Below, piece by piece: positions 8,925 to 31,309 of a stretch of 35,970 nt of DNA; position 1 is the first letter of the stretch; each line of letters opens with the position of its first letter. Below the pieces are notes generated by a model, which was not told the origin of the DNA, searched no databases, and saw only the letters and a program-made list of their open reading frames with translations. Source of the DNA: Verrucomicrobiota bacterium (GTDB taxonomy: Bacteria; Verrucomicrobiota; Verrucomicrobiia; Chthoniobacterales; UBA10450); the NCBI GenBank assembly GCA_003218475.1, contig QHNR01000124.1:1-35970 (forward strand). Direction: 5' to 3'. The position numbers and the translations under genes were made by a program.

Positions 8925-8955
8925 AAAGGCGTTCGCCGCGGAGGCGAACGCCTTT
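8925..8955 (-). terminator. Hairpin after the S74 surface-protein gene (probable terminator)
   Basis: Perfect 13-bp stem (aaaggcgttcgcc / ggcgaacgccttt) with a 5-base loop, starting 48 bp past the stop of the minus-strand gene at 9003. Only a short T run follows on the minus strand, so termination strength is uncertain. Confidence 0.55.
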
Positions 8956-22735: not shown

Positions 22736-22785
22736 AGCCTAAGCTTGCGCGTGACATTGGTTTGTTCCCTCCGATATTTTTCTCC

Positions 22786-23976
22786 GTGGCGAGATTAGAT
22801 CTGCTTAGCGTCGGACTGGGACTGGCGGCCCTTGCCGGAGTGAATCTTTACCTGACCGTCTTCGCCACCGGTCTGGCGATTCATTTCCATTGGATCACGC
22901 TGGCGCCGCAATATCAGTCGCTCGAGATCCTTGGACATCCGCTCGTGATCACCATCTCGGGCATTCTCTATCTGCTCGAATTTTTCGCCGATAAAATGCC
23001 GTGGCTCGATTCGGCCTGGGACGCTGTGCACACCGTTATTCGCCCGATCGGCGGCGCGTTGCTGGCAATTCAGGTACTCGGTCATCCGAGTCCTGCGTTT
23101 ACGATAATTGTCGCACTGCTCGCCGGCGGGACGAGCCTCGTCGCGCACACTGCAAAAGCAGCGACCCGGCTCGCCAGCAACACGTCGCCAGAACCCTTTT
23201 CGAACATAGGGCTGAGTCTTGGCGAAGACGCTGTGGTCCTGGCCGGATTGGCTCTGGTGCATTTCAATCCCGTCCTTGCCCTGATCATCTTCGTGATCGG
23301 CATCGCTGCCTTTTTCTATTTTGCGCCAAAAATTTTGCGGGCCATGAAAGCGAAGATTTGGCTGGCCTGGAAAAAACTAAATGGACCAGCTGACCGCAAC
23401 ACCCCTGCAAAGTTGCCGGTTACATTACCGGCGCGGCTCGCATCTGTGTTCGGCCGTGAAAATGTTTTAGGTGAAACACTGGCCTGGGCTGCGCGGTGCA
23501 TCAGCGGGCGCAGCCGCCGCATTCCGACAAATCTTTTCGGCGCACTTGTGGCCACGAACGAGGAACCGCGTAGACTCATTTTCGTGGCGCGCAAAGGCGG
23601 ACGTCCGTATACGCGCACGATCGAGCTGGAGGGCTCCATCATAACTCATGAGCCACGATTCTTGTTAGAGAGCCTTCTTATTTCGCCTGCTGAAGGGAAA
23701 GGCCCAGCGTATTCCTTCATTTTCCCGCGATCGGATGCGGCTTTAGTTGAGGGGATTCTGCGATCCCGCTTGAGTAGCGCACAGCTTGCCCCCCAGTGTG
23801 CGGCGTCTCGCGTGTTTCTGGGGAGCACAGGCTGCCAGCCTGTAGTTGCCGGCACCCCTGCCGGCAACATCTTTGGCACACAACTTCTGACGCGACTCTA
23901 TTTCCCGGTCTCGGCAAGCTGCCGAGACCTGCAGGCTGGCAGCCTGCGCTCCCCAGAACGGGTGCATCACGCGTGA
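22786..23976 (+). CDS. DUF4126 membrane protein with a repeat-derived C-terminal tail
   Basis: The first ~200 residues are a DUF4126 integral membrane domain (GLGLAALAGVNLYLTVFATG, ILYLLEFFADKMPWLDSAWD, ALLAGGTSLVAHTAKAATRL, SLGEDAVVLAGLALVHFNPV). A soluble part follows (RRLIFVARKGGRPYTRTIEL ... SFIFPRSDAALVEGILRSRL) that resembles a DUF502-type domain. GTG 22786 (VARLDLLSVGL) is favoured over TTG 22762. From codon ~345 the frame enters a structured repeat at 23820-23954 and takes its last ~50 residues and stop from it; the original C-terminus was probably shorter. Function unknown. Confidence 0.82.
   Translation: MARLDLLSVGLGLAALAGVNLYLTVFATGLAIHFHWITLAPQYQSLEILGHPLVITISGILYLLEFFADKMPWLDSAWDAVHTVIRPIGGALLAIQVLGHPSPAFTIIVALLAGGTSLVAHTAKAATRLASNTSPEPFSNIGLSLGEDAVVLAGLALVHFNPVLALIIFVIGIAAFFYFAPKILRAMKAKIWLAWKKLNGPADRNTPAKLPVTLPARLASVFGRENVLGETLAWAARCISGRSRRIPTNLFGALVATNEEPRRLIFVARKGGRPYTRTIELEGSIITHEPRFLLESLLISPAEGKGPAYSFIFPRSDAALVEGILRSRLSSAQLAPQCAASRVFLGSTGCQPVVAGTPAGNIFGTQLLTRLYFPVSASCRDLQAGSLRSPERVHHA
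23820..23954. repeat. Nested palindromic element (outer stem plus two inner hairpins)
   Basis: Outer arms 23820-23842 (ggggagcacaggctgccagc-ctg) and 23932-23954 match as inverse complements at 22 of 23 bases. Inside are two perfect 10-bp hairpins: 23845-23868 (gttgccggca cccc tgccggcaac) and 23907-23929 (ggtctcggca agc tgccgagacc). The whole can fold as a cloverleaf-like structure and overlaps the 3' end of the DUF4126 frame. Confidence 0.85.
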
Positions 23977-24007
23977 CATTTCCGCACGCTCTTTCCATAA
24001 TTTGCCC

Positions 24008-25402
24008 GTGAGATCCCTGGCAGAATGCTACGCGCAAATGCGCGATGTCACTCGCGTGCATGAGCGCGCATTGTTCGTCTCACCGCGAATCCCGTCCGAG
24101 CTGGAGCTGCAAGCACGCTGGTTTGCCGGAGATTTCGGTAAACATTTCGTGAGCACTGCCGGCGACGAAATCGAGATATTCCAATTCGGCACGTGGAACC
24201 GTGAAGCCGGTCCTGATTTTCGCGATGCTGCAATTCGGATAAATCGCAGCGAGCCGGTTCGCGGCTGCATCGAGATCGATTTGCTTGATCGCAGTTGGGA
24301 AACACATGGTCACGCTACCAATCCCGCTTTCGATTCGACTGTGCTCCACGTCTTTGTCGAGAGAAGCGAGCGCGAATTTTTCAGCCGCACAAAATCGAAC
24401 CGCAACGTCCCGCAGGTGTGCATCAATCCCACGACGTTGCCACAAGTTTTCAACGCAAACGTGCCACTCGCCCGGCCTGGGCGTTGTCAGGCGCCACTCA
24501 AAGATTTGCCCGAGGAACGCGTGTTCAGCGTGCTGGACGCAGCAGCGCAATTTCGTTTGCGACAAAAAGCAAACCGGATTCGCAACAAGATCGACACGCA
24601 CGGGCGCGACGAAACGCTATTTCAGGAGATCGCGAGTGCGCTCGGTTACAAGGAAAACAAGCTGCCGTTCACGCTTCTCGCACAGCGGCTGCCGTTGCGA
24701 TTACTGCGTGAAAATGTTCGCGACTGCGAAGCGTTGCTCTTTGGTGGAGCCGGTTTCCTACACACGCACGATCTCGATGTTTATAAAAAATCGGCGCGCG
24801 AATATGTGCGACAGCTATGGGACGGTTGGTGGCCGCATCGTGACGAGTTGCAAAGATTCATTTTGCCAGCCAACACCTGGCGGCTGAGCAGCACCCGTCC
24901 ATTAAATCACCCGCAGCGCCGGCTCGCCGCGCTGGGAATCCTGGCGCGTGATTGGTCCCGGCTTCAGCGCGCGTCGGGCAAAAACAGCGTCGCTGCGGCG
25001 AATGATTTGTTTCGAGCGCTTGAGCATCCGTTTTGGAATTTCCATTACACGCTCACCGCTGCTCCCTCGGCAAAGAAGATGGCGCTCATCGGCGAATCGC
25101 GGATCGCCGATATTCTGGCAAACGTTCTATTTCCTTTTTGGCTTGCGCACGACGTCGCGGCTGCCGCGTCGCCGAGCACACCGCTTTGGGCGGAATATGC
25201 AAAGCTGCCGGCACAGTTGTCGAACAGACGGCTCGAAACAGCTGCGACCCGCCTTTTCGGAAATGATTCGCGCCGGAAAGACTTTCTGAAAACCGTCGCA
25301 CACCAGCAAGGTCTGCTCCAAATCTACGAAGACTTTTGCATGCAGGACAATTCTGATTGCGCGCAATGCCCGTTCCCGGAGCAGATGGCGAATTGGATGT
25401 GA
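24008..25402 (+). CDS. DUF2851 family protein
   Basis: The 464-residue protein matches DUF2851 in its order of features: ELQARWFAGDFGKHFVSTAG, IEIFQFGTWNREAGPDFRDA, GCIEIDLLDRSWETHGHATN, VLHVFVE. The middle helical part has LFQEIASALGYKENKLPFTL. The C-terminus carries a Cys cluster FCMQDNSDCAQCPFPEQM (C-x7-C-x2-C) typical of the family. The fold suggests a nuclease-like N-terminal half, but the function is not established. GTG 24008 or TTG 24002 can serve as start. Confidence 0.85.
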   Translation: MRSLAECYAQMRDVTRVHERALFVSPRIPSELELQARWFAGDFGKHFVSTAGDEIEIFQFGTWNREAGPDFRDAAIRINRSEPVRGCIEIDLLDRSWETHGHATNPAFDSTVLHVFVERSEREFFSRTKSNRNVPQVCINPTTLPQVFNANVPLARPGRCQAPLKDLPEERVFSVLDAAAQFRLRQKANRIRNKIDTHGRDETLFQEIASALGYKENKLPFTLLAQRLPLRLLRENVRDCEALLFGGAGFLHTHDLDVYKKSAREYVRQLWDGWWPHRDELQRFILPANTWRLSSTRPLNHPQRRLAALGILARDWSRLQRASGKNSVAAANDLFRALEHPFWNFHYTLTAAPSAKKMALIGESRIADILANVLFPFWLAHDVAAAASPSTPLWAEYAKLPAQLSNRRLETAATRLFGNDSRRKDFLKTVAHQQGLLQIYEDFCMQDNSDCAQCPFPEQMANWM

Positions 25403-31276: not shown

Positions 31277-31309
31277 GCGGCGTCCGGAATCTCGGACGCC
31301 GCTTTTTTT
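31277..31309 (+). terminator. Rho-independent terminator of the outer-membrane protein gene
   Basis: Perfect 10-bp stem gcggcgtccg / cggacgccgc with loop gaatct, followed by seven T. Confidence 0.93.

Follow-up and report, generated by a model that had tools for sequence, protein, structure and literature searches.

The palindromic element at the end of the DUF4126 frame in the window (the whole stretch of DNA analysed here, 35,970 nt) is very probably a non-autonomous REP doublet (BIME/REPIN/MITE-like) belonging to a RAYT-linked, genus-wide family, here called family 1, and the C-terminal tail of the DUF4126 protein a passenger that followed the loss of the protein's normal end. The preliminary description had reported a palindrome with outer arms matching at 22/23 positions around two perfect 10-bp hairpins, and this was confirmed: the arms at 23820-23842 and 23932-23954 pair at 22/23 positions, and the hairpins lie between them at 23845-23868 and 23907-23929. 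As single-stranded DNA the element folded at -56.7 kcal/mol, compared with -27.6 ± 2.8 kcal/mol for 200 dinucleotide shuffles (z = -10.3). The repeated unit exceeded the span first described and extended from about 23816 to 23958 on the plus strand (about 143 bp), with arms of 39 nt at 87%. It consists of REP1 (23817-23843, plus strand), inner hairpin 1 (23845-23868, plus strand, 10 bp with a loop of 4), a variable central spacer (23869-23906, plus strand) with little conservation among copies, inner hairpin 2 (23907-23929, plus strand, 10 bp with a loop of 3) and REP2 (23931-23957, minus strand), an inverted copy of REP1. REP1 is composed of the tag TCTGGGGAGC and the self-palindrome ACAGGCTG-C-CAGCCTGT. 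Each REP is a palindrome by itself, and the inverted arrangement of two self-palindromic REPs gives rise to the 23-bp outer stem. Within the window, REP sequence was found at the element alone (chance expectation 0.00). Two other strong hairpins, at 8925-8955 (13 bp) and 31277-31302 (10 bp), lie outside family 1 and may be terminators.

The preliminary description had proposed a REP/BIME-type element and a search for further copies. In the genome of origin (G000), one incomplete MAG of 3.16 Mb in 195 contigs that is 83% complete, 105 matching pieces amounted to 40 places, 38 of which were inverted REP pairs (plus, then minus) and two single REPs. The REPs of a pair were about 105 nt apart and the unit length was mostly 134-149 nt. 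With minor variation, all pairs began with TCTGGGGAGC and a palindrome and ended with a palindrome and GCTCCCCAGA, and enclosed two inner hairpins, with little conservation at the centre. Family-1 matches were present in 32 of the 35 same-genus genomes (own genome included) versus 1 of 23 outside the genus; judging by their source labels, the former are soil Verrucomicrobiota (Chthoniobacterales) MAGs.

Covariation was assessed in an alignment of 36 copies, two copies with large indels (L062 and L084) being left out. Under a model with a long outer stem, 94.4% of the outer cells paired and columns 11-151 were unpaired in 11/36 copies; under a model of local hairpins, the two REPs paired at 99.0% and 96.5%. 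In five copies, both sides of the local pair at columns 11-27 had switched from A-U to G-C, and one copy left it unpaired; the pair at columns 134-151 had changed likewise in 12 copies and was unpaired in none. Both-sided changes occurred at 7/10 pairs in each of the two inner hairpins, and the local hairpins together held 124 both-sided cells versus 27.6 ± 3.9 in shuffles. The outer stem was rejected as a kept structure, as the ends of the local hairpins compensated in the same alignment in which the pairs of the long stem often failed. Contrary to the cloverleaf with outer stem proposed at first, the covariation thus favours four hairpins in a row as the structure kept by evolution, with the cloverleaf as a by-product. 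Four hairpins in a row also match what is expected of RAYT substrates. Template switching between the arms could be a further source of compensatory change, so that such change need not reflect selection alone.

Dispersed palindromes, regular inverted pairs, covarying hairpins and ends that flank a RAYT all agree with the REP/BIME-type reading. Inverted self-palindromic REPs numbering in the tens per genome, ends in common with a RAYT and a match to the transposase profile are likewise features of the REP/BIME/REPIN systems of RAYT/TnpAREP. Family 1 differs from these in its two additional covarying inner hairpins and in its tag, which was TGGGGAGC in nearly all copies and not GTAG (or CGTC). 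The tag resembles the GTGGGAG of Pseudomonas REPs as given in part of Nunvar 2010 (PMC2817692), and the label of the GTAG super-family is withheld here.

Genes carrying the elements were identified with Pfam on 20 element-spanning frames, codon-score gene calling being too weak to use. Five of the 38 pairs were located in or at the end of homology-supported genes, namely the DUF4126 gene of the window, DnaE, MetH, Lhr and RecG, and the other 33 were intergenic or unassigned. Long frames over elements at seven loci (L002, L057, L065, L071, L073, L076 and L083) were N-terminal extensions before the first domain and remained uncounted. Outside supported genes, 2.8 of the six frames per copy were open, versus about 1.9 in shuffles, indicating that an open frame is partly intrinsic to family 1.

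The DUF4126 frame (22762-23976, plus strand) encodes 404 aa, with the PF13548 domain at residues 16-188 and a TGA stop at 23974-23976. A DUF2851 gene (24002-25402, plus strand) follows, and this gene order is kept in most relatives. The element had been said to supply the last ~50 residues and the stop; it encodes about residues 353-398 (~46 aa), beyond the DUF4126 domain, and the stop lies 16 nt downstream, outside it. The window protein ends ~50-65 residues later than its relatives. Among 27 relative loci, 23 were readable (four were truncated, frameshifted or diverged), and in all 23 the DUF4126 gene stopped 1-28 codons past the aligned part, none entering an element. As the preliminary description had anticipated, relatives lacking the element also lacked the tail.

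The further claim that the element had reshaped the protein was not borne out in that form. Residues ~336-352, upstream of the element, were also unlike the normal DUF4126 C-terminus, and a probable left-arm remnant of a second palindromic family was present inside the frame at 23767-23816 (plus strand; local alignment to the intergenic element of locus L051, score 56), with shorter matches in L029 and L028. The old last codons and stop were lost upstream, beside this other repeat, and in the congener L045 a family-1 element was found in the same gap ~40 nt after the DUF4126 stop, so that the protein ends before it. For the window copy, no cleanly unoccupied site that would define its junction was found. 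From the missing normal end and the second-family match, the read-through most likely came after the old end had been lost next to an older repeat, rather than being a simple product of the family-1 insertion. Translation of the tail would be expected from the open frame. The tail could also be an artefact of a single-base error just upstream, given that the genome is one incomplete MAG and that an out-of-frame TAG lies at 23775-23777, just upstream of the element. In the relative L032 (G020:C215), the contig repeats the DUF4126 end in inverted orientation, possibly an assembly foldback at a palindrome.

It is extremely unlikely that DUF4126 has gained the tail as a new C-terminal domain under selection. 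In favour of this reading, two repeat remnants are crossed by the frame without a stop and the tail is unique to the window lineage, but its presence in no relative makes purifying selection unmeasurable, and the REP-encoded linkers of a modelled RecG-RAYT fusion (see below) had the low confidence of disordered passengers. Most likely, the tail is tolerated as a passenger.

The gap between DUF4126 and DUF2851 contained palindromic elements of several kinds among the relatives: one collapsed REP in L040 and the second palindromic family in several others. Its position between two co-oriented genes, the palindromes there in many relatives, the strong fold of the element and the mostly downstream location of REPs relative to genes noted in the part of De Nocera 2013 (PMC3733652) drawn on here would all suit an RNA device, i.e. 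a terminator or an mRNA-stabilising or processing hairpin, with the frame read-through incidental. This explanation is somewhat unlikely, as the kind of palindrome differs among relatives, the gap of L046 is only about 54 nt, family copies occur in many unrelated contexts, frames included, and no Rfam family reached the gathering score in the locus around the element (L001).

The RAYT link of the preliminary description was borne out at recG. A Pfam Y1_Tnp search of G000 gave 11 matches, one of them in a frame of 943 aa whose remainder is RecG. A complete family-1 element stands in the same frame, ~65 nt ahead of the part of the RAYT that Pfam matched. In three congeners (L086, L088 and L112), the RAYT in recG was flanked by family-1 REP1-hairpin 1 on the left and hairpin 2-REP2 on the right, and L112 carried a second, degenerate family-1 copy ahead of the RAYT. 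No family-1 REP was found at the nine other RAYT-like (Y1_Tnp) loci checked in G000, whose flanks hold other hairpins, and no RAYT of family 1 was recognised among the standalone Y1 genes checked there. The RAYT-bearing recG insert of G000 (L075, C157, 1172-1990) is itself a composite, with second-family REP ends outside and a whole family-1 element inside, and continues with a RAYT having its own ATG in one open frame throughout.

Six proteins were scanned with NF047646, the NCBIfam model of the REP-associated tyrosine transposase, and scored 85.0 bits (MetH), 75.3 (RecG), 76.5 and 75.6 (ThrRS), 56.3 (AlaRS) and 78.6 (standalone); all matches were significant and the MetH protein alone exceeded the cut-off of 80. 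Among solved structures, the only relative found was TnpArep (PDB 4ER8; E = 3.7e-4). These scores, near or above the REP_Tyr_transpos cut-off for a RAYT flanked by family-1 ends, argue against the elements being MITEs derived from an ordinary element of the DDE or IS200 type with no relation to RAYTs. Long terminal inverted repeats would fit such MITEs, but the REP hairpins are self-complementary like RAYT substrates (as described in part of PMC8266576), and this origin is very unlikely. The window copy has no adjoining RAYT and is most likely a non-autonomous, RAYT-less, MITE/REPIN-like form of the RAYT module, which a RAYT would have moved.

The four clear in-gene insertions in G000 were located in the PHP domain of DnaE, in a linker of MetH, in Lhr and in RecG, and the same sites were compared across the genus. 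In Lhr, an insert was present in 2 of 25 readable loci, all 25 being in phase and stop-free; the flanks compared for a target-site duplication were highly diverged. All 28 readable DnaE sites were in phase and stop-free. As read by eye from their peptides, 20 of these carried REP-type inserts, five other inserts and three nearly none, and the REP-type inserts fell into at least four families ('LGSTGCQP' for family 1, and 'LGSARVSR', 'LGSARLQR' and 'LGSAGASP'). At the PHP position, L123, L125, L134, L135 and L144 had a different in-frame insert, with an NCRASVSDAN-type peptide in most, perhaps another repeat family. The 27 readable MetH sites (two from one contig) were all in phase and stop-free, and contained elements of several families, a RAYT (L192 and L195) or nothing. 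Of 30 RecG loci, 17 had a RAYT (two cut by contig ends), two had small elements only and 11 were empty, and all 28 complete frames were in phase and stop-free. CarB, AlaRS, RarA/MgsA and Sua5 were further RAYT hosts in the genus. Several congeners (L205, L206, L210, L215, L216, L217 and L224) carried an in-frame RAYT close to the oligomerisation domain of CarB, in frames of 1326-1376 aa where complete, identified by Pfam for L205, L215 and L217 and by frame length or N-terminus only for the rest.

Most of the genomes are MAGs, and the in-frame inserts might accordingly be assembly chimeras, pseudogenes, or introns or inteins removed before the mature protein. It is most improbable that they are, as the sites recurred across many independent MAGs, every frame being in phase, and the RAYT-bearing recG was the only complete high-identity recG match in G000. 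No Rfam intron (group I/II) reached the gathering threshold in seven loci, no intein (Hint) Pfam domain was found in the fusion proteins scanned, and RNA splicing would not need a stop-free phase. Two near-identical recG-RAYT contigs were observed in two species-level MAGs (L092, G007:C63; L093, G023:C334); since G023 also has a RAYT-free recG, binning contamination is suggested for this pair.

The embedded proteins matched the RAYT/TnpAREP family profile, and the recG-embedded RAYTs retained both HUH histidines in 14/14 and the catalytic tyrosine in 13/14 sequences. For the ten sequence pairs of lowest pS, dN/dS was 0.10-0.16 for the embedded RAYT versus 0.07-0.10 for the C-terminal part of RecG; part of the purifying selection on the RAYT may predate its arrival in recG. 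In 10/14, the 20 codons preceding the first conserved motif contained no ATG, GTG or TTG, so that these RAYTs are probably not produced apart from RecG. An AlphaFold model of one RecG-RAYT fusion, based on 20 sequences, reached a mean pLDDT of 69.5 and a pTM of 0.52, with pLDDT values of ~80 for the RAYT, about 24-30 for the REP-encoded linkers and mostly 70-90 for the RecG parts. Its best PDB match was RecG 1GM5 (861 alignment columns). A 369-aa Y1 transposase frame with a C-terminal DnaA-type helix-turn-helix, a different RAYT architecture, was found in L222 (G008:C50, 974-2080, minus strand).

RAYT and RecG distances were uncorrelated (Spearman -0.09 over 91 pairs, some RecG sequences being partial), and vertical descent of a single recG insertion was rejected on this ground. 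Two separate RAYT clades also occupied one codon position of recG. Together, these observations point to turnover at the recG site, through either transposition or interspecies recombination.

When genomes were scanned with the recG-RAYT alignment, 79 loci were detected, all in Verrucomicrobiota except one in Kiritimatiellota and one labelled only 'bacterium'. The hosts were RecG (38), AlaRS (22), MetH (7), ThrRS (2) and CarB (1), with six standalone frames and three unassigned; five of the six standalone frames had been reassigned, the RecG reference having matched through the RAYT tail only. At least 120 aa before and at least 60 aa after the RAYT, i.e. embedding, was seen in 63/79 loci, a figure biased by a query built on recG-embedded RAYTs. 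Among the RAYT matches listed, frames of at least 550 aa made up 14/150 in an even phylum sample (counted by eye, hosts unchecked) and 36/150 when the genus was searched with the Pfam model (also by eye). Embedding is a minority state of RAYTs across the phylum. A quick RAYT tree with many open forks required 15 host changes, against a least possible number of seven and a shuffled mean of 39, in line with RAYT lineages that are mostly host-bound, with repeated switches. In more distant Verrucomicrobiota, L241 and L254 had a RAYT inside threonyl-tRNA synthetase; in the RAYT tree, L252 and L256 cluster with these two, and their host is possibly ThrRS too.

Building on the observed structure, copies, reading phase and conservation, an account of the mobility, expression and function of the family can be proposed. 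The RAYT protein would recognise the REP hairpins as single-stranded DNA and would have copied or moved the family-1 element in trans. The element would then have settled in the DUF4126-DUF2851 gap, where several palindromic families gather, and with the normal end and stop of DUF4126 lost beside an older repeat, the frame would read through the element and stop just past it. The window copy would be one instance of a broader pattern: disruptive insertions would be purged, so that family members and RAYT modules persist where they are translatable, in the loops and linkers of housekeeping proteins. A bolder proposal is that RAYT-REP modules form a protein-borne mobile class, in which the transposase exists only as an internal domain of essential host enzymes (RecG, AlaRS, ThrRS, MetH, CarB and others), where selection preserves it intact; fixed in-frame docking sites would be the places to which it hops or at which species exchange it. 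The RecG fusion would then be a working helicase plus HUH-nuclease, likened to Rep-helicase enzymes, that mobilises small REP elements including the window copy. This proposal is unlikely.

Inteins with homing endonucleases place the gene of a DNA-cutting enzyme inside a conserved host gene. In this they, like IStrons, resemble the embedded RAYTs; here, however, no module for protein or RNA splicing was found, and the protein seems to retain the insert. REPs read through in frame, many of them in DNA replication and repair genes, are described in De Nocera 2013 (PMC3733652), with most GTAG in-frame cases in the verrucomicrobium Opitutus terrae and with different REPs at about one site in recB of two Xanthomonas species. 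The present elements are likewise read through in frame, but compared with the parts of that paper drawn on they are larger four-hairpin units, with family turnover at one site genus-wide and an embedded RAYT. Rickettsia palindromic elements (RPE) are also in-frame palindromic repeats in protein genes including DnaE; as far as the same account (PMC3733652) describes them they have no linked transposase, whereas the elements here are RAYT-linked and from another phylum. In the portions of the literature drawn on, RAYTs are defined as flanked by inverted REPs (Nunvar 2010, PMC2817692), a few long proteins are set aside as fusions or annotation errors (PMC6006769), and tnpAREP genes are mostly single copy, evidence of mobility being absent (PMC8266576). 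The RAYTs described here are not single-copy, housekeeping-like genes of their own but modules inside other genes' frames, with several Y1 copies per genome. No in-frame RAYT was found in a literature search with subscription papers mostly outside its scope, nor in the parts of PMC3733652 drawn on.

In-frame REPs are thus already known and the window element alone is an ordinary REP doublet; the RAYT-bearing, site-sharing in-frame family appears new against the literature covered. RAYTs have been described as immobile, domesticated and mostly single-copy, and the spread of REPs is an unsolved question. RAYT modules and their small derivatives in housekeeping frames, with types swapped per site among close relatives, are natural evidence of RAYT module exchange, and the embedded RAYTs offer testable fusion proteins. 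Family 1 illustrates how selfish palindromes add peptides to proteins.
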